This document shows, piece after piece, positions 14,251 to 28,192 of a stretch of 64,000 nt of DNA (positions are counted from its first letter, which is position 1; each line of letters begins with the position of its first letter). Position numbers and translations under genes: made by a program. Source of the stretch: Winogradskyella aurantiaca (GTDB taxonomy: Bacteria; Bacteroidota; Bacteroidia; Flavobacteriales; Flavobacteriaceae); contig NZ_QKTV01000009.1 in assembly GCF_003362725.1 (NCBI RefSeq), positions 1-64,000 on the forward strand, read 5' to 3'. The notes under the pieces were generated by a model. That model saw nothing but the letters and a program-made list of their open reading frames with translations, was not told the DNA's origin and made no database searches.

Positions 14251-17200
14251 ATGAGAACGAGCCTTCTTGCTGTTTTATTTTTCTCTTTTCTTATTTCTTT
14301 TGCGCAAAACCAAGAATTTAACATTATTTGGGGAGAGTCCCAATCGTTGGATACTGGCTACGGGGCGATTAAAGTTCCAGTTGTTGAAAATTTTAGGTCG
14401 TCATACGACGATGAGCGTGGCTTTTATATCTACAAAGAACTTGAACAATCTGTTTCACCGAGTGCGAGTTTTAGTAATTTGAAATATGAAATTGTACCAG
14501 CTTCACAGTTGTTCGATCTTGATTTGGATCTTTTACCAGCTGAAGTAAAAGCTGACTATTCGGTTACTACTTCAAGAGGCCAGCGAAAAGGGTTCGTTTA
14601 TTTAAGCCCCATCATCAAGGTTGATGGTGTGTATCAACGCCTGGTGTCATTTGAATTGACATTTTCATCATCATTCACGGCAAATCTTAATTCATCAGTT
14701 GATAATAACACAATAACTAATTCGGTTCTGGCTACTGGAGATTGGTATCGTTTTTATGTCGAGGATTCTGGTGTTTTTCGATTAGACAGAGGTTTTTTAA
14801 ACGATTTGGGCATAAACACCAATAACCTTGATCCAAGAACAATTAGGATTTTTGGAAATGGCGGACAAATGATTCCTCAAAGAAATTCAGTGCCTTACCC
14901 CATTGATCCGACGGAATTAGCGATTTGGGTTTCAGGTGAAGATGACGGTTCTTTTGATAATGGTGATTTTGTCTTGTTCTATGCACAAGGACCCCATGGT
15001 ATACATCAACGTTCCTACAATCAACAGTTCAATTCGAATATTAATCTATTCACAGACAGAACCTATTATTATGTGAACGTTAGTTCGGCAAATGGAAAAC
15101 GTGTACAAAATAGGATCCAGCCTGATGAAGAAGCAAATATTCAAATAGATACCTTTCAAGATTACCAATATTATGAGGTAGATGAGGAAAACCTGGTTAA
15201 GATTGGCCGCAGGTGGTTTGGTGAGGACTTCAGTTTTGAGAATGAGCGTGTCTTTGAATTTGAGTTTCCTAACCTGGTTTCATCAGAGCCCCTAGTATTT
15301 GATATCGCTTTTGGATCAGTAGCGCCTATCCCAACGCAAACATCTATGGACATAAGTATTAATGGACAATCGTTTAACCAGAGTTTAATTTCGGTTGATT
15401 TAAATGGCTCCATACTGGCATCAGCATCAACTTTTTTTAGAGAAGTGAACTTAAACACGGACGCAGTTAGCGTTCAATTAAATTACAATAATGGCGGTAA
15501 TCCTACAGCTAATGCCTATTTAGATTACATTAATATTGAAGCGACACGGCAACTTATTTTTGAAGGAGTACCTTTGCATTTTAGTAATAAATCCGTACCG
15601 ACTTCACCCGGTATAGTACAATATAATCTGTCTTCTGCAAGTCAAGTCGCCCAGATTTGGGACATTACTGATAGATTTAATATTGGGTCTTACACAAATA
15701 CAGATGGAGATAGTAATTATTCCTTTAAAGCAATTTCAGGGGAAGAAAGAGAATACATAGCCTTCAGTTATTCTAATGTTCCTGTGCCGTCGAGAGATGT
15801 GAATTCTAGAGTAATCAATCAAAACTTAAAAGGTACTGTATTTCAAAACGATAATAATCAGTTCGAAGATGTTGATTATATAATGGTTTCACCAGATATT
15901 CTTATTAGTCAGGCGGAACGTCTTGCAGATATCAACAGGTCAAATTATGATCTTAACATACGTGTGGTATCCCTAACGAGTATTTATAACGAGTTTGGTT
16001 CAGGGAATATAGATATTAGTGCTATTAGGAATTTTATTCGATATGTATATTCCAACGCGAGTTCTCCAAATAATCGGGTAAAATATGTGTGCTTGTTTGG
16101 TGATGGATCCTATGATTATAAGGATAGAATACCTAATAACACCAATTTAGCACCACCTTGGTATAGTGAGAATAGTTTTAGTTTAACAGGTTCTTTTGTT
16201 TCGGATGATTATTATGGAATGATGGATGAATTTGAGGGTCAAATGTTAATCACAGACCGTCTTGATATTGCCATGGGTAGAATACTCGCAGAAAATCCGA
16301 AACGCGCTCGAGAAATGGTGGATAAAATTCAGCAATATTATGAAGAGGAGTCCTTTGGTAGTTGGCGTAATAATGTCCTCTTAGTCTCCGATGATGTTGA
16401 TGAAAGTTGGGAGCGGATATTGCAACAAACCACTGATGACATTGGAACTGCAGTAGAAGGTGAAAAACCATTTTTAAACATGGTAAAGATTCATTCGGAT
16501 GCCTTTATTCAAGAATCATCTCCTGCAGGTGATCGCTACCCAGAAGTCAATGAGCGGTTTAAGGATCGTGTGGATGTTGGGGCCTTAGTTGTTAATTATT
16601 TTGGACATGGGGGTGAAGATGGTTTGGCTAAGGAAAGAATTCTGGATAAAAATGATGCACAAGAGTTTAGTAACCTCTGCAAGTACAATTGTTTTGTTAC
16701 AGTTACTTGTGAATACACTAAGTTTGATGATCCTAACAGAACTACTGCAGGGGAGTTTACTTATTGGAATACCAATGGGGGATCAACTAGTATGATTACA
16801 ACAACTCGGCAAATATTTGTTACAGTTGGGGTTGCCTATAATATTGTGCTCGAGGAATATTTGTTTGCATTTGGATCAAATGATTATCCTTCCGCTGCTG
16901 AAGCCTTAAGATTAACAAAGATTGATCCGAGGATAGCAGGGAGTAGTCAAAAAAGACTTGTTTATTTTATCGGTGATCCAGCCATGAAACTCACTTTTCC
17001 AAAACCAAACATTAGATTGGCTTCAATAAATGATATTCCTATTGACCAGGTAACTGATGTCTTAGAGGCTTTATCTTATGCTAAAATTGGTGGCGAAGTT
17101 CTCGATGAGAATAATCAATTGATTGATGATTTTAACGGTGTGGTGACCGTGACCGTTTATGATAAACCTATAGACAGGCAGACCTTAGCTAATGATGGGG

Positions 17201-18117
17201 TTACCGATGCAACAGGTCAATTGATAAAAATGGATTTTAATACCTTAGGTGAGGTAGTCTTTAAAGGTCAGGCAACGGTTACGAATGGCATATTTGATGT
17301 CGATTTTATTGTGCCAAGAGACATTGGAATTCCAGTTGGTCGGGGTAAGGTTAGTTTTTACGCTAAGGAGAACAATGTCTTAGTGGATAGGGCAGGACAC
17401 AGTTTTGACATAAATATTGGTGGAATTAATGAAAATGCCACTGAAGACAATCAAGGTCCTGAAATACGTCTATTTATGAATGATGAGAATTTTGTAGATG
17501 GTGGAATTACAGGATCATCGCCTACCCTGATAGCTAAACTCCAAGACGAAAATGGAATTAATACTGCCAGTGGTATAGGTCATGATATTGTTGCTATATT
17601 GGATGGGGATGAGACCAATCCAATAGTTCTAAACGACTATTATCAAGCGGAAGTGGATGATTATACAAATGGTGTGGTGTCCTTTGCTTTAAGAGATATA
17701 GAGCCAGGTATACATACATTGACACTACGAGCATGGGATGTTTACAATAATTCCGCCATATCTGAACTTCAATTTAATGTTTTCAACGAGAACGAAGAGC
17801 TTGTTATCGATAATGTTTTAAACTATCCGAACCCCTTTGTAGATTACACGGAATTTTGGTTTAACCATAATAGCCCGGATCAATTGGATATTTCAGTTCA
17901 AATATTCACTGTCTCTGGAAAGCTGGTTAGAACCTTAAACGGACAAACAGCAGCGGGTGGAAAAACGACGTCGTCTCTATCACGAGATATAATATGGGAT
18001 GGTCGCGATGATTTTGGTGAAAAAATAGGTAAAGGAACTTATATATATAAACTAAAAGTAAAATCTAACCGTTTAAATAAACAAGTTCAAAAAATTCAAA
18101 AACTTGTTATTCTTTAA
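14251..18117 (+). CDS. porU: type IX secretion system sortase/peptidase PorU
   Basis: Gingipain-like (C25) cysteine protease on the cell surface that removes the C-terminal sorting domain of T9SS cargo and links it to the anchor. 1288 residues with a cleavable signal peptide ending near FAQNQ. The catalytic pair is visible as His786 (NYFGHGGEDG) and Cys820 (VTVTCEYT), 34 residues apart, close to the His657/Cys690 spacing of Porphyromonas PorU. The C terminus has an NYPNPF / VFTVSGK-like FlgD-type sorting or Ig domain ending in GTYIYKLKVKS. Followed by porV. Confidence 0.95.
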   Translation: MRTSLLAVLFFSFLISFAQNQEFNIIWGESQSLDTGYGAIKVPVVENFRSSYDDERGFYIYKELEQSVSPSASFSNLKYEIVPASQLFDLDLDLLPAEVKADYSVTTSRGQRKGFVYLSPIIKVDGVYQRLVSFELTFSSSFTANLNSSVDNNTITNSVLATGDWYRFYVEDSGVFRLDRGFLNDLGINTNNLDPRTIRIFGNGGQMIPQRNSVPYPIDPTELAIWVSGEDDGSFDNGDFVLFYAQGPHGIHQRSYNQQFNSNINLFTDRTYYYVNVSSANGKRVQNRIQPDEEANIQIDTFQDYQYYEVDEENLVKIGRRWFGEDFSFENERVFEFEFPNLVSSEPLVFDIAFGSVAPIPTQTSMDISINGQSFNQSLISVDLNGSILASASTFFREVNLNTDAVSVQLNYNNGGNPTANAYLDYINIEATRQLIFEGVPLHFSNKSVPTSPGIVQYNLSSASQVAQIWDITDRFNIGSYTNTDGDSNYSFKAISGEEREYIAFSYSNVPVPSRDVNSRVINQNLKGTVFQNDNNQFEDVDYIMVSPDILISQAERLADINRSNYDLNIRVVSLTSIYNEFGSGNIDISAIRNFIRYVYSNASSPNNRVKYVCLFGDGSYDYKDRIPNNTNLAPPWYSENSFSLTGSFVSDDYYGMMDEFEGQMLITDRLDIAMGRILAENPKRAREMVDKIQQYYEEESFGSWRNNVLLVSDDVDESWERILQQTTDDIGTAVEGEKPFLNMVKIHSDAFIQESSPAGDRYPEVNERFKDRVDVGALVVNYFGHGGEDGLAKERILDKNDAQEFSNLCKYNCFVTVTCEYTKFDDPNRTTAGEFTYWNTNGGSTSMITTTRQIFVTVGVAYNIVLEEYLFAFGSNDYPSAAEALRLTKIDPRIAGSSQKRLVYFIGDPAMKLTFPKPNIRLASINDIPIDQVTDVLEALSYAKIGGEVLDENNQLIDDFNGVVTVTVYDKPIDRQTLANDGVTDATGQLIKMDFNTLGEVVFKGQATVTNGIFDVDFIVPRDIGIPVGRGKVSFYAKENNVLVDRAGHSFDINIGGINENATEDNQGPEIRLFMNDENFVDGGITGSSPTLIAKLQDENGINTASGIGHDIVAILDGDETNPIVLNDYYQAEVDDYTNGVVSFALRDIEPGIHTLTLRAWDVYNNSAISELQFNVFNENEELVIDNVLNYPNPFVDYTEFWFNHNSPDQLDISVQIFTVSGKLVRTLNGQTAAGGKTTSSLSRDIIWDGRDDFGEKIGKGTYIYKLKVKSNRLNKQVQKIQKLVIL

Positions 18118-18179: not shown

Positions 18180-19427
18180 ATGAAAAATTACTTACCGATC
18201 TTATTCTGCTTTTTAGCAGTAATGACACTCAATGCCCAGGATATAATTGTGCAGGATATTCCAGACCCTAATGATAGCCGTGTAATTACAACTGGTATTC
18301 CCTTTTTATTAGTCGCGCCTGATGCTAGGGCTGCAAGTTTAGGTGACCAAGGTGTTGCCACAGGTCAAGATGTTTTTTCACAACACTGGAACATGTCTAA
18401 ATATGCCTTCTCAGAAGCGAAATCAGGATTAGGAATAAGTTATACTCCATATCTCTCTAGATTAGCCAATGATATTGATTTAGGATATGTAGCATACTTC
18501 AATAGACTTAACGAATTCAGTGCTGTTTCTGGAAGTTTCAGGTATTTTGGACTGGGTGAGATATTATTGACTCAAGGGCCAAATGACCCAGGCGTGTTAG
18601 TAAACCCTAACGAGTTTGCTCTGGATTTAGGATATTCTCTAAGACTTTCAAACCAGTTTGCAATGTCAATTGGAATGCGTTATGTGCGGTCTGACCTTAG
18701 ATTAGCCGCAGATCCAAATTCAAATGCTCAGGCTGCTAATACATTTAATGTGGATATTAGCGGATATTATCAAAGCGAGGAAATTGCTTATACTGACTTT
18801 AATGGTAGATGGCATGGCGGATTTGCTATCCAAAATCTGGGACCAAAATTTCGATATGATGATGGAGGGCAACAAAACTTTCAACCGTCTAATTTACGTT
18901 TAGGGGGTGGGTTTGACTTTATTTTTGATCAGTACAATACGTTAGCCCTTAATGCAGAATTTACGAAGTTATTAGTGCCAACACCGCCATTAAGAGGTGA
19001 TCGTCGTACGTTTGAGGATGTTGATGGTGATGGAGTTTATGACCCAGATGTTGATAATGAAATTAGTTATGACGAAGGTGTTATTCTTGCGGGAAGAGAT
19101 GATAACGTTGACTTTTTATCAGGTGTTTTTCAATCCTTTGGGGATGCCCCAGGTGGCTTTAGTGAAGAACTTAGAGAAATTACCTGGGCACTAGGCGCTG
19201 AATACCGTTATCAGGATTCCTTTTCATTGAGGGGAGGATATTTTAACGAAGCATCAGATAAAGGTGGTAGATCCTTTTTCTCCTTGGGTGCAGGTTTTAA
19301 GTACACCACCATTGAAATAGATTTGTCATACCTGTTTGCTACTGGTGCACTTCAAAATCCTTTAGAGAATACCTTGCGATTCTCACTAACCTTTAATTTT
19401 GGTGAAGAAACGTATCAGGAATTTTAG
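18180..19427 (+). CDS. porV: type IX secretion system outer membrane protein PorV
   Basis: FadL-like outer-membrane beta-barrel that collects cargo from the SprA translocon and delivers it to PorU (family knowledge). 415 residues with signal peptide (MTLNAQ cleavage region). Family blocks: ITTGIPFLLVAPDARAASLGDQGVAT near the N terminus, then alternating barrel strands, ending with an aromatic C-terminal strand (TLRFSLTFNFGEETYQEF). The position directly after porU is the usual flavobacterial arrangement. Confidence 0.94.
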   Translation: MKNYLPILFCFLAVMTLNAQDIIVQDIPDPNDSRVITTGIPFLLVAPDARAASLGDQGVATGQDVFSQHWNMSKYAFSEAKSGLGISYTPYLSRLANDIDLGYVAYFNRLNEFSAVSGSFRYFGLGEILLTQGPNDPGVLVNPNEFALDLGYSLRLSNQFAMSIGMRYVRSDLRLAADPNSNAQAANTFNVDISGYYQSEEIAYTDFNGRWHGGFAIQNLGPKFRYDDGGQQNFQPSNLRLGGGFDFIFDQYNTLALNAEFTKLLVPTPPLRGDRRTFEDVDGDGVYDPDVDNEISYDEGVILAGRDDNVDFLSGVFQSFGDAPGGFSEELREITWALGAEYRYQDSFSLRGGYFNEASDKGGRSFFSLGAGFKYTTIEIDLSYLFATGALQNPLENTLRFSLTFNFGEETYQEF

Positions 19428-24148: not shown

Positions 24149-27100
24149 ATGACGCATTGTGTAGGGAAAACCACGCTTAAATGTGGTTTGTGGTTGGTTT
24201 CATTTTTAAACGTTTTCCTCATCTCAGCCCAAACTTTTGAGAGAGTAGAAACAACTGTTGGATTGTCAGTATTAGAGGAAAATAATGGGGTAGCAGTTGC
24301 GGATTACGATGGGGACAATGACCTGGATATATTTGTTGTAGCCATAGATAAAGATGATCCCACTAATTCCAAAACCATTAGTAGATTATTTCGTAATAAT
24401 AATGACGGCTCATTCACTGATGTCACGGAATTTGCTGGGTTGACGGAATTGCTAAGTCAGGAAGAAGGGGGTGATGATTATTTTGGCTTGGCGGGACACA
24501 AGAGTGGTGCATCGTGGGGCGATTATAACAATGATGGTTTCCCAGACTTATTTTTAACTAATTCCTACAAGGTTCAGTTATGGCGAAATATTGGCAATGG
24601 TACCTTTGTAAATGTCACTGGTATTTCGGGCTTTGATGGATTAAACGAATGCAGAAATACGGGTGCTACATGGTTTGATTATAACAATGACGGCTATTTA
24701 GATATTTACATAAGTGACTGGGACGAGTGTGATAGTAATCAACTTTTTAGAAATAATGGGAATTCAACATTTACCAATGTGACTTCACAAACAAATATCC
24801 AGGCAACCAATGGATTGGCAAGTTATACGGCCGTTCCCTTCGATTTTAATGAAGATGGTTATATGGATATTTATATTTCAAATGATTTTGATGAACCAAA
24901 TGATTTGTACATAAATAATGAAGGAAATACATTTTCTAACCAGAGTGAAGCGTTTGGTGTAAATACGATGGGAGATGATATGGGAATTACGGTTGGAGAC
25001 TATAACCTTGATGGTGCCTTTGATATTTTTATAACCGCTATTGACAATAACTTTCTCTTAACCAATAATGGTGATAATACATTCAGTGAAAATGCAGATG
25101 CCTTAAATGTCGGTAACTCTTTTTGGGCTTGGGGGACGCGTTTTGCAGATTTCGATCTGGATGGTGATGAAGACCTATTTGTGGCCAATGGATATGAGTT
25201 TGAAACACGAAATGTAGAACCCAATTTTTATTATCGCAATAATTTCATAGAGGGAGGTAATTCATTTGAAGACATTTCAGCTCAACTCGGCTTAAACGAA
25301 GAGACCATTAGTGTAGAGGCCATTGATTGGGATTATGACAATGACGGTGATTTAGATTTATTTGTTACTAACAGCAATACCAACTCCTTTTTTTATGAAA
25401 ATAAGGTTTTAAATTTTGACGATGCAGCTCCAACTAGGAACTGGTTGAAAATTAAGTTACAAGGAACCATTTCTAATAGGGACGCCATTGGAACAGTAGT
25501 TGAGATTACCACCACTGAAGGTACTTATAGTCGTTATTATTCCGGAGTTGGATTTCTTGGGCAAAGTTTAAGGCCTGTGCATTTTGGGTTAAATCAGATC
25601 GGTGAGATTCAAGAGATTACTGTAAAATGGCCTTCTGGTTTGGAAGAAACTTATGAAGATTTAGAAGTAAATCAAACTTATAAGTTGACGGAGGCTCAGG
25701 GTATTGAAAATTTGAATATTCAACCGAGCGAAAAGATTTATGGGTGTACAGATCCAACATCATGCAGCTACAATCCTGACGCAACACTTGATGACGGTTC
25801 ATGCACTTACTTAGAAACTGGAGCTATTTCTGGAAATACCAACTCAAGTTTTTTAAGCGTTGAAACTTATAGTTTTCCTATAGCAGCTGGTTCAACAGCT
25901 CAGTGGTCTGTTATTGGTGGGCATATCGAGAATGGCCAAGGCACAGGATCAATTACCGTTGAATGGGAAATTGAAGAGGAGGGGCAAGTGTCTGTTAGAG
26001 AATTTGGTGAAAATTGTGCAGGTGAGGAACGCAATATTTCCGTGAGTTTGTCAGCATCCGATTTACCAGATAACATTTCAATTTCCAGGTTATGGAATGA
26101 GGCATTACTTGAGGCAATTCGTAATGACTTTGCAAGACCAACAGTACATGCGCGTAATTTATTTCATACCAGTATTGCTATGTATGATATTTGGGCTACT
26201 TATAACGAAGGAGCACGGCCGTATTTACTGGGTAATAGTGTAAATGGGTTTACATCTGATCTCGAAACATTCATTCCAATAGAACCTATTGATGATGCCA
26301 TGAACAGAGCAATCAGTTATGCTATGTATCGCATTATTTCACATCGCTTTCAGACGGCACCTGAATTTGAGCTAATTCAAAGAAGGATTGATTTGATAAT
26401 GGAAAAGTTAGATTACGATACCAATTACTCGTCCGTGCTTTATGAATTTGGAAATGCTGCTGCATTTGGAAATTATGTGGCTCAGGTGATCATAAATTAT
26501 GGCTTACAGGATGGTTCACGTGAAACCTCAGGATATGATAATGCATATTATCAGCCAGTTAACGAGCCGTATGGATTGGAATTAACAAATAACCCACCAA
26601 CCGAACACCCGAATCGATGGAGGCCACTTGGCTTAGATATATTTATCGATCAAGGCGGTAATGTTGTGGATGGCAATGTGCCTGAGTTTTTGAGCCCTGA
26701 GTGGGGAAATGTATTTAGTTTTGCTCTTAAAGATGAGGATTTAACAAGCTATGAGCGGGATGAAAATACCTTTAAGGTATATCATGACCCTCAAGATCCG
26801 CCATATATAAGTTTGACTGAAAACAATGCAATGTCTGATGCTTATAAATGGGGATTTTCTATGGTAAGTGTTTGGCAATCTCATTTAGATCCCGCTGATG
26901 GGGTTATGTGGGATATTTCACCGGCATCAAAGGGAAATGTTGACATTAGTTTATATCCGTCTGGCTATGACGAGTACCCCAATTTTTACAATTTTTTTGA
27001 AGGGAGCGCTACCAATATTGGTCATACAATAAATCCGGTAACCGGCAGCCCATACCAACCCAATATGGTACCAAGGGGCGATTATGCAAGAGTTCTTGCA

Positions 27101-28192
27101 GAATTCTGGGCAGATGGACCTGATTCAGAAACGCCACCTGGACATTGGTTCACTATTTTGAATTACGTGAATGATCATCCAATGTTCGAAAAGAAATTTC
27201 GAGGTGAAGGTGATATACTAAACGATTTAGAGTGGGATGTAAAGTCTTATTTTATTCTTGGGGCCACAATGCATGATGCGGCGATTGCAGCTTGGAGTGT
27301 TAAAGGTTGGTACGATTACATTCGACCTATATCTGCCTTGAGATATATGGCTGCGGAACAAGGTCAGAGTTCTAGTCCAGAATTACCTAATTATAGCATC
27401 TCGGGAATACCATTAGTAGATGGTTATATTGAAATGGTCGAAGAAGGGGATGCCTTGGCTGGTCCTGGCAATGTTAATGTTGGAAAAATCAAACTTTATA
27501 CATGGCGTGGTCATGATTACATTGATGATACCGATGTAGATGTTGCTGGTGTTGGATGGATTTTGGCTGAGGATTGGTATCCTTATCAACGACCTACCTT
27601 TGTAACACCACCATTTGCTGGGTTTGTTTCAGGACATTCTACCTATTCACGCGCAGCTGCAGAAATTCTAACGAAGTTAACAGGTTCTGAATATTTTCCG
27701 GGGGGGATGGGTGAATTTGTCGCTCGGAAAAATGAATTCCTGGTTTTTGAAGAAGGACCTTCTCAAGATGTTGTTCTTCAATGGGCTACATATAGAGATG
27801 CGTCCGATCAAACCAGTTTATCACGTATATGGGGAGGTATTCATCCACCGGCAGATGACATTCCTGGGCGATTAATTGGAATTGAGGTAGCACAAGATAC
27901 CTGGGAGTTAGCACTTCCATATTTTAGTGAAGAGGAAGTACCTCTAGACCCAAATGAACCAATTAAAGTATATCCAGTTCCAACACAGGATAGGCGACTT
28001 AATGTGACTAACACCAATGAGAATACAGAAATTCAAATATTCGATTTGCGTGGGCGTTTGATAGCCATACCAAGAATTGATTACGATGGTCAATCCAAAA
28101 TAAGTACAATTCATATTTCATCATCTACTTCCTCGGGTCCCTATTTGCTAGTGGTTAATGGTGAAACTAGAATGGTAGTTATTGAAAACTAG
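24149..28192 (+). CDS. secreted FG-GAP/UnbV - vanadium haloperoxidase (PAP2) fusion with T9SS sorting domain
   Basis: 1347-residue secreted protein. A signal peptide (cleavage near LISAQT) is followed by seven FG-GAP/VCBS-type repeats, each with a Ca-binding D-x-D/N-x-D-G-x-x-D loop (DYDGDNDLD, DYNNDGFPD, DYNNDGYLD, DFNEDGYMD, DYNLDGAFD, DFDLDGDED, DYDNDGDLD), enough for a seven-bladed propeller; an ASPIC/UnbV domain (about 430-505); a Cys-rich CTDPTSCSYNPDA..DDGSC motif near 531-550; a beta-sandwich/PKD-like segment; and a haloperoxidase/PAP2 domain from about 650. Its active-site pattern is intact: K1052-x6-R1059-P, S1161-G-H1163, S1225-R1226-x5-H1232-x3-D1236. The last 75 residues (KVYPVPTQDRRLNV, IFDLRGRLI) are a type A T9SS sorting domain. 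Whether it oxidises halide with vanadate or is a phosphatase cannot be told from sequence. Confidence 0.85.
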   Translation: MTHCVGKTTLKCGLWLVSFLNVFLISAQTFERVETTVGLSVLEENNGVAVADYDGDNDLDIFVVAIDKDDPTNSKTISRLFRNNNDGSFTDVTEFAGLTELLSQEEGGDDYFGLAGHKSGASWGDYNNDGFPDLFLTNSYKVQLWRNIGNGTFVNVTGISGFDGLNECRNTGATWFDYNNDGYLDIYISDWDECDSNQLFRNNGNSTFTNVTSQTNIQATNGLASYTAVPFDFNEDGYMDIYISNDFDEPNDLYINNEGNTFSNQSEAFGVNTMGDDMGITVGDYNLDGAFDIFITAIDNNFLLTNNGDNTFSENADALNVGNSFWAWGTRFADFDLDGDEDLFVANGYEFETRNVEPNFYYRNNFIEGGNSFEDISAQLGLNEETISVEAIDWDYDNDGDLDLFVTNSNTNSFFYENKVLNFDDAAPTRNWLKIKLQGTISNRDAIGTVVEITTTEGTYSRYYSGVGFLGQSLRPVHFGLNQIGEIQEITVKWPSGLEETYEDLEVNQTYKLTEAQGIENLNIQPSEKIYGCTDPTSCSYNPDATLDDGSCTYLETGAISGNTNSSFLSVETYSFPIAAGSTAQWSVIGGHIENGQGTGSITVEWEIEEEGQVSVREFGENCAGEERNISVSLSASDLPDNISISRLWNEALLEAIRNDFARPTVHARNLFHTSIAMYDIWATYNEGARPYLLGNSVNGFTSDLETFIPIEPIDDAMNRAISYAMYRIISHRFQTAPEFELIQRRIDLIMEKLDYDTNYSSVLYEFGNAAAFGNYVAQVIINYGLQDGSRETSGYDNAYYQPVNEPYGLELTNNPPTEHPNRWRPLGLDIFIDQGGNVVDGNVPEFLSPEWGNVFSFALKDEDLTSYERDENTFKVYHDPQDPPYISLTENNAMSDAYKWGFSMVSVWQSHLDPADGVMWDISPASKGNVDISLYPSGYDEYPNFYNFFEGSATNIGHTINPVTGSPYQPNMVPRGDYARVLAEFWADGPDSETPPGHWFTILNYVNDHPMFEKKFRGEGDILNDLEWDVKSYFILGATMHDAAIAAWSVKGWYDYIRPISALRYMAAEQGQSSSPELPNYSISGIPLVDGYIEMVEEGDALAGPGNVNVGKIKLYTWRGHDYIDDTDVDVAGVGWILAEDWYPYQRPTFVTPPFAGFVSGHSTYSRAAAEILTKLTGSEYFPGGMGEFVARKNEFLVFEEGPSQDVVLQWATYRDASDQTSLSRIWGGIHPPADDIPGRLIGIEVAQDTWELALPYFSEEEVPLDPNEPIKVYPVPTQDRRLNVTNTNENTEIQIFDLRGRLIAIPRIDYDGQSKISTIHISSSTSSGPYLLVVNGETRMVVIEN

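Follow-up and report, generated by a model that had tools for sequence, protein, structure and literature searches.

A predicted surface vanadium haloperoxidase fused to a CRTAC1-like propeller–UnbV module in Winogradskyella aurantiaca, and the recurring association of the two families

A 64,000-nucleotide stretch of Winogradskyella aurantiaca DNA (RefSeq assembly GCF_003362725.1, contig NZ_QKTV01000009.1, positions 1 to 64,000 of the forward strand; referred to below as the window) contains a gene for a protein of 1347 amino acids (aa) in which an FG-GAP beta-propeller and an UnbV domain are followed by a catalytic domain of the vanadium-dependent haloperoxidase (VHPO) type and a sorting domain of the type IX secretion system (T9SS). 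The locus raises the question of why an enzyme of this kind should be joined to such a propeller, the more so as we know of no function for the UnbV domain and of no protein partners of such haloperoxidases. The domains, the predicted folds, the invariant residues of the vanadate site and the T9SS signal are observed. The explanation that we favour, with a probability of about 0.62, is that the protein is a VHPO of the cell surface, anchored by a docking module that resembles CRTAC1. The fusion combines two known families in a new way and occurs commonly among marine Bacteroidota; what matters more, and is the new part, is the recurring partnership between VHPO and UnbV.

Domains and predicted folds of the fusion protein

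A sequence-only reading of this DNA had proposed an open reading frame (ORF) at 24149–28192, and exactly this frame was recovered. Its features, all on the + strand, are as follows.

24149–28192, + strand: ORF of the fusion protein, 1347 aa, ATG start, frame confirmed exactly
24149–24232, + strand: signal peptide, approximately aa 1–28, judged by eye from the sequence
24233–25441, + strand: FG-GAP beta-propeller with approximate borders (profiles, model, conservation)
Seven acidic (calcium-type) propeller loops, starting at aa 52, 125, 177, 232, 284, 334 and 395
25484–25681, + strand: UnbV/ASPIC domain, aa 446–511 (Pfam; together with the propeller it matches mouse CRTAC1)
25739–25804, + strand: Cys-rich linker YGCTDPTSCSYNPDATLDDGSC with C533, C539 and C552 (sequence, conservation)
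25817–26032, + strand: PKD-like stretch, aa 557–628, below the curated cut-off, beta-rich in the model
26075–27943, + strand: VHPO domain as modelled, aa 643–1265 (profile matches, AlphaFold2 model, conservation)
27302–27328, + strand: K1052-x6-R1059-P1060 motif, KGWYDYIRP (sequence, alignment)
27629–27637, + strand: S1161-G1162-H1163 motif (sequence, alignment)
27821–27856, + strand: S1225-R1226-x5-H1232-x3-D1236 motif (sequence, alignment)
27968–28171, + strand: T9SS type A sorting domain, aa 1274–1341 (Pfam and NCBIfam profiles)

The catalytic residues named in the sequence-only reading (K1052, R1059, H1163, R1226 and H1232) were found at the claimed positions. In an alignment of 65 rows, W1049, K1052, R1059, F1156, S1161, G1162, H1163, S1225, H1232 and D1236 were invariant, and R1226 was present in 64 rows, the remaining one having an ambiguous residue (X). 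The motif residues were likewise invariant in an earlier set of 44 rows, in the 43 that reached the region. The ligands of the vanadate site, namely Lys, Arg, Ser, Gly, Arg and then the bonding His, are all present in this order, and, judged from this conservation, the motif match is not due to chance.

The models were computed from alignments of the window protein and the best 80 relatives only, with 65 sequences for the VHPO domain and 35 for the propeller–UnbV half. The sequence-only reading had suggested either a haloperoxidase or a phosphatase and had proposed structure prediction as the check. The AlphaFold2 model of aa 643–1265 (mean pLDDT 90.4, pTM 0.92) contains the VHPO core, and all 17 Foldseek matches at E ≤ 0.001 were VHPOs or their homologues. 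In VIA-align, in which Z differences below 1 were treated as ties, bacterial VHPOs aligned over 391–439 residues with Z 26–29, the NapH1 vanadium chloroperoxidase (VCPO; 3w35) giving Z 29.0 and 2.6 Å over 434 residues, XhnO11 (9l8x) 28.4, NapH3 28.1 and ZgVIPO (4usz) 26.4; the fungal VCPO (3bb0) gave 20.9, and acid phosphatases reached Z 11.9 at most, over 199 residues. The model thus supports the VHPO type, and the extent of the fold covered favours a haloperoxidase over a phosphatase. In the PDB sequences, the window domain had four distinct matches at E up to 10, all of them VHPOs or VHPO homologues, and the matches of a 19-row profile were five VHPO or homologue sequences and, at E 0.13, an unrelated one.

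It should be noted that the VCPO-type Pfam models fall just below their cut-off of 27 in the window protein (DUF6851, aa 676–826, 26.2 bits; VCPO_2nd, 25.4 bits), so the protein was assigned to the VHPOs by its fold and motifs. Among seven scanned relatives, DUF6851 passed the cut-off in all seven and VCPO_2nd in five. Since the catalytic models are below cut-off and NCBIfam adds nothing other than the T9SS tail TIGR04183 (27.8 bits, cut-off 23), routine annotation could miss the catalytic half.

The model of the N-terminal half (aa 29–640, pLDDT 93.8) had mouse CRTAC1 (9etn) as its best Foldseek match (E 3.8e-25), weaker rows including fungal lectins and integrins. The match spans both the propeller and the UnbV domain, and VIA-align superposed 450 residues at 2.4 Å with Z 41.6, the next rows being at 30.8. 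In the Pfam scan, FG-GAP_3 matched in seven stretches (134.7 bits), UnbV_ASPIC at aa 446–511 (59.2 bits, cut-off 23.4) and Por_Secre_tail (PF18962) at aa 1274–1341 (30.3 bits, cut-off 27). Both the UnbV domain and the C-terminal type A T9SS domain of the sequence-only reading are therefore real profile matches, the latter by two profiles. A weak PKD-like stretch (20.5 bits, cut-off 25) is an addition to that reading.

The seven calcium loops that had been claimed are all present, but the strict pattern D-x-D-x-D-G-x-x-D given for them fits only two. The looser D-x-[DN]-x-[DN]-G-x-x-D fits six, and the first loop (aa 52–60, DYDGDNDLD) has no G. Across 35 aligned rows, each acidic position of the seven loops is conserved in 34 or 35, or, for the first loop, in 29/29 or 30/30 of the rows reaching it. 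The Cys-rich linker said to precede the catalytic domain was also confirmed, as C533, C539 and C552, together with C623, are invariant in 35/35 rows. Taken together, profiles, conservation and two confident models support the domain order, the export signal and the VHPO type of the catalytic domain, and the placement on the cell surface that had been predicted agrees with the export signal and the T9SS tail.

Each half has known counterparts. The closest folds to the catalytic domain (Z 28–29) are NapH1, NapH3 and XhnO11 (3w35, 8cxl, 9l8x), which are chains of 478–531 residues lacking propeller, UnbV and tail modules. ZgVIPO1 of Zobellia galactanivorans (4cit, 4usz) shares the VHPO fold (Z 25.9–26.4), the SGH and R-x5-H motifs and a host among the marine Flavobacteriaceae, but it is an unfused chain of 458 residues and distant in sequence (E 4.9e-5). 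The VCPO of Curvularia inaequalis (1vnc, 3bb0) has the same two-bundle architecture (Z 20–21) and presumably no propeller, UnbV domain or T9SS tail. Mouse CRTAC1 (9etn) has the propeller–UnbV fold in common with the N-terminal half, and we take it to lack such a catalytic domain and a T9SS tail. The cyanobacterial enzyme CylK is not known to be a VHPO and differs in forming carbon–carbon bonds. Its description mentions a fusion with a Ca2+-binding part, a beta-propeller and alkyl-halide substrates (PMC8916777).

Recurrence of the VHPO–UnbV association

The sequence-only reading had proposed a search for the same domain order, which showed that the architecture is common in genomes, so the idea of a lone oddity was rejected. 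A survey of 397 Flavobacteriaceae genomes, with up to three scored candidates per genome, gave matches at E 1e-5 in at least 175, distant VHPO types included. Frame sizes were counted for 125 strong rows (108 genomes) among the matches listed: frames of 1240 aa or more with a VHPO domain made up at least 59 rows in at least 50 of the 397 genomes, and frames of 600–1239 aa at least 62 rows in at least 61, the presence of UnbV being checked in the fetched loci only. In a phylum-wide set, 37 of 395 genomes matched at E 1e-10, again including distant types. The relatives in named genomes are the best 80 of at least 580 and hence biased toward close ones; the nearest is from Winogradskyella (77% identity), and the other hosts are Flavobacteriaceae, Fulvivirga, Flexithrix, Saprospiraceae, a Prolixibacteraceae metagenome-assembled genome (MAG) and further MAGs that carry the labels Gemmatimonadetes and KSB1. 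UnbV is present in 63 of 123 distinct VHPO rows; 51 start at the VHPO domain, five are N-truncated and four have another or a cut N-terminus.

A single origin of the fusion was rejected on the trees of both halves (loci are denoted below by L and a number). In the VHPO tree, 60 fused rows lie in one clade of 62, and the fused L052, L053 and L054 lie within an otherwise unfused clade; in these three, the gap between the UnbV and VHPO matches is about 25 residues, compared with about 130 in the window protein. Forcing the fused rows into one clade lowered the log-likelihood by 157 in a 46-row VHPO tree (p-AU 0.00012) and by 136 in a 68-row propeller–UnbV tree (p-AU 0.00011), these being quick LG+G4 trees with groups defined after a first tree had been viewed. 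In the latter tree, L042 groups with the unfused UnbV genes from L072 and L073, and L105 with L052–L054; the junction of L145 and L111 in it was flagged as one between long branches. As the fused rows are not monophyletic in either tree, the modules came together, or were exchanged, on more than one occasion, and several losses instead of repeated gains are possible.

The two halves also occur as separate genes, with VHPOs that belong to the window's own VHPO family in the VHPO tree. Splendidivirga corallicola (L145) has consecutive genes for SusC, SusD, an UnbV protein (607 aa) and a VHPO (744 aa), so that the order of the last two is the domain order of the fusion. SusD, UnbV and VHPO genes stand in series in L073, and in L072 one gene separates two UnbV genes from the VHPO gene.

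A second VHPO in the window's genome (L185), a relative of ZgVIPO (E 5.2e-188 to 4cit), follows an FG-GAP/UnbV gene of 1080 aa at a distance of 9 bases. In 51 genomes (this one and 50 others), 28 standalone VHPO genes were assigned to three kinds from their profile scores, window-family rows and a 53-aa row containing a stop being left out. ZgVIPO-type calls were made against 4cit for the own gene, against the own gene for 15 others (144–632 bits) and by profile score alone for five. An UnbV match lies within 3 kb of at least 15 of the 21 ZgVIPO-type genes, the chance expectation from genome size and UnbV number being 0.26, and within 10 kb of at least 17 (expected 0.75). These counts are lower bounds, as fewer than the total of 186 UnbV matches were listed, and the cases are not independent, because the ZgVIPO-type genes of different genomes share a common descent. 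Among 15 loci inspected because of their nearby UnbV, the VIPO gene adjoins an UnbV gene in 13, other genes intervening in L220 and L221, and each locus has one to three UnbV genes.

As a control, nine genomes were used that had been picked for a ZgVIPO-type gene, most of them with an UnbV neighbour. UnbV lay within 3 kb of 7/63 SusD genes and 2/77 sulfatase genes, as compared with 9/10 ZgVIPO-type genes, for which the unpicked figure remains the at least 15/21 given above. Of the 45 UnbV matches in these genomes, 39 entered the control; of the 84 sulfatase rows, 77 did, the seven others being fragments.

A gene for a sodium:solute symporter (PF00474) at L185:3767–5209 directly precedes the UnbV–VIPO pair of the window's genome. 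The PF00474 family includes the animal iodide symporter. The idea of a conserved iodide symporter was dropped, as 5 of 15 other VIPO loci gave weak likenesses only (45–55 bits versus 1024).

Proposed action and rival explanations

According to the favoured explanation, the protein would be exported through Sec and the T9SS, its tail trimmed by PorU and the enzyme left at the cell surface; the sorting tail supports the export, as do porU and porV, which both lie within the window. By analogy with known VHPOs, vanadate would be held by K1052, R1059, S1161, G1162 and R1226 and bonded through H1232, and H1163 would be the acid–base residue. As in its family, the enzyme would use hydrogen peroxide and seawater iodide or bromide to form HOI or HOBr at the surface. 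A type that releases hypohalous acid (HOX) is expected rather than a selective halogenase, because H1163 is kept, whereas the aligned XhnO11 has Ser there. A catalytic Lys and Ser are noted for selective enzymes in PMC12871659. The propeller–UnbV half would carry out no chemistry itself; it may fix the enzyme to a glycan, the matrix or an outer-membrane partner and so confine the oxidation to a chosen place. Since VHPO and UnbV were brought together repeatedly, both by fusion and in adjacent genes, the two halves probably act jointly, and the same repetition leads us to infer that the CRTAC1-like module places the enzyme on a surface ligand.

Several observations weigh against this explanation. 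The 51 genomes contain 186 UnbV matches and 21 ZgVIPO-type genes, so most UnbV genes are away from a VHPO. In the same genomes, UnbV was found within 10 kb of neither the standalone VHPOs of the 490-aa type (0/3) nor those of other types (0/4). In eight of 12 fetched loci of the 490-aa type, no UnbV ORF adjoins the VHPO: it is 3.9 kb away in L193, and the fetched stretch of the other seven has none; in L188, L189, L190 and L192, it lies 25–65 bases from the VHPO. Nor was UnbV seen in the fetched stretches of a third VHPO type (L195 and L196). A universal VHPO–UnbV rule is thus too strong, other kinds of VHPO being paired less often. The short VHPO forms examined have no propeller, which must therefore be dispensable for some members. 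The conserved neighbourhood of the fusion gene offers no functional clue, and a kept VHPO site is no proof of halide oxidation, as the PDB title of NapH3 describes a rearrangement catalyst. Two plasmid searches brought no pairing in the regions inspected: of 21 records for UnbV, the single region inspected had CRTAC1-family genes without a haloperoxidase, and of five records for the VHPO domain, the single one inspected had no annotated UnbV.

The rivals differ in which half they reinterpret. A real though lesser possibility is that UnbV is a generic surface module of SusCD loci, found with VHPOs through shared location and not through function. The majority of UnbV matches are indeed not beside a VHPO, CRTAC1-family genes of Granulicella lie near a TonB receptor and tetratricopeptide repeat (TPR) proteins, and SusC-/SusD-like genes follow the UnbV genes in several VIPO loci (by phmmer match or appearance). 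At the fused loci, a SusC-like neighbour was seen in 11/65 and a SusD-like one in 9/65, both named by sequence appearance. What argues for a functional link is that the control found UnbV far less often near SusD and sulfatase genes than near ZgVIPO-type genes, that VIPO–UnbV pairs occur without a nearby SusD match (L185 of the own genome, L211, L213 and L215) and that both trees indicate repeated fusion.

As for the catalytic half, we consider it unlikely that the domain is a VHPO homologue without HOX release, that is, a selective halogenase or a NapH3-like rearrangement enzyme to which the propeller presents a substrate. The closest folds and sequence matches do include NapH1, NapH3 and XhnO11, but H1163 is invariant here, whereas XhnO11 has Ser at this position (SGS for SGH) and SGH is absent from the alignment with NapH3, and the eight scanned neighbours of the fusion gene include no natural-product genes. 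Still less probable is that the vanadate-capable fold serves in phosphoryl transfer, either as an acid phosphatase at the surface or as some other enzyme of the PAP2 clan. The kinship is real, with class A acid phosphatases aligning at Z of about 10–12 over some 190–200 residues, and apo-VCPO can dephosphorylate according to the title of 3bb0. However, the model has the complete two-bundle VHPO fold over the 391–439 residues aligned to bacterial VHPOs, the K-x6-RP, SGH and SR-x5-H set is invariant along with W1049 and F1156, no phosphatase is among the sequence-profile matches, and the PAP2 profile scores 12.5 bits against a cut-off of 27.2.

A bolder and rather doubtful extension of the surface-tether explanation is that UnbV/CRTAC1-type propellers are dedicated partners in halogen chemistry, keeping substrate or oxidised halogen in place for the adjacent peroxidase. 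If true, it would cover the fused enzymes, the UnbV genes beside iodoperoxidases and perhaps the UnbV proteins of enediyne clusters, and would give the UnbV domain its first function and offer a clue to that of CRTAC1. The UnbV domain is named after enediyne gene clusters, and enediyne biosynthesis reportedly runs through a diiodinated intermediate; the literature search gave nothing usable on the enediyne–UnbV link. In any case, a calcium-loop propeller fused to VHPOs or encoded beside them is a concrete candidate for a haloperoxidase partner, and its repeated joining to one enzyme class makes the role of UnbV testable by one gene deletion.

In a literature search with subscription papers largely outside its reach, no paper pairing a haloperoxidase with UnbV was found and none joining vanadium, haloperoxidase and FG-GAP; among the papers listed in broader searches, none takes up the pairing in its title or the opening of its abstract. 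Novelty is thus unproven. Iodine uptake by Arenibacter C-21 requires calcium, oxygen and glucose, and a haloperoxidase is thought to be involved (PMC5064120). A calcium-loop partner protein would fit this need for calcium. In Zobellia, one vIPO gene is reported to be upregulated on an alga (PMC9296495).

Neighbouring genes and variants of the architecture

Two export genes of the window lie upstream of the fusion gene.

14251–18117, + strand: porU, T9SS sortase (NF033707, 1339 bits), ending 6 kb upstream
18180–19427, + strand: porV, T9SS outer-membrane protein (NF033710, 500 bits)

Between 14251 and 24110, on the same strand, the window carries porU, porV, a cytidine deaminase, pyruvate dehydrogenase E1 alpha and E2, SDR and HAD genes, and this order upstream of the fusion gene partly recurs in relatives. 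An operon hint from the pyruvate dehydrogenase, SDR, HAD, SprT-like, mannose-1-P guanylyltransferase and DUF389 neighbours was rejected, as these show no functional link. A recent mobile insertion is not favoured either, since eight neighbour families recur in 20–26 of the 65 fused loci (62 of the 65 are distinct, and the neighbour counts include five duplicate loci).

Propeller-less relatives stand beside four conserved genes in 14 loci (L055–L063, L124, L127, L128 and others; L059 is the same as L130). One of the four is a kynureninase (Pfam, L055), and by eye the others resemble a kynurenine 3-monooxygenase, a RidA-like deaminase and an aldehyde dehydrogenase, which would place a propeller-less VHPO next to genes of tryptophan breakdown.

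The VHPO gene at L074:4296–6913 is split into two ORFs that are single in relatives, which indicates a broken copy or an assembly error. Two tandem fused genes occur in L049 and L110, with VHPO domains that are alike in the former and clearly different in the latter. FG-GAP-like repeats without an UnbV match are fused to the VHPO in L129 and L200, possibly by a further independent fusion. Among the Saprospiraceae relatives, Cu-binding_MopE motifs follow the VHPO domain in L131 and L113, and leucine-rich repeat (LRR) and immunoglobulin (Ig) matches precede it in L135.

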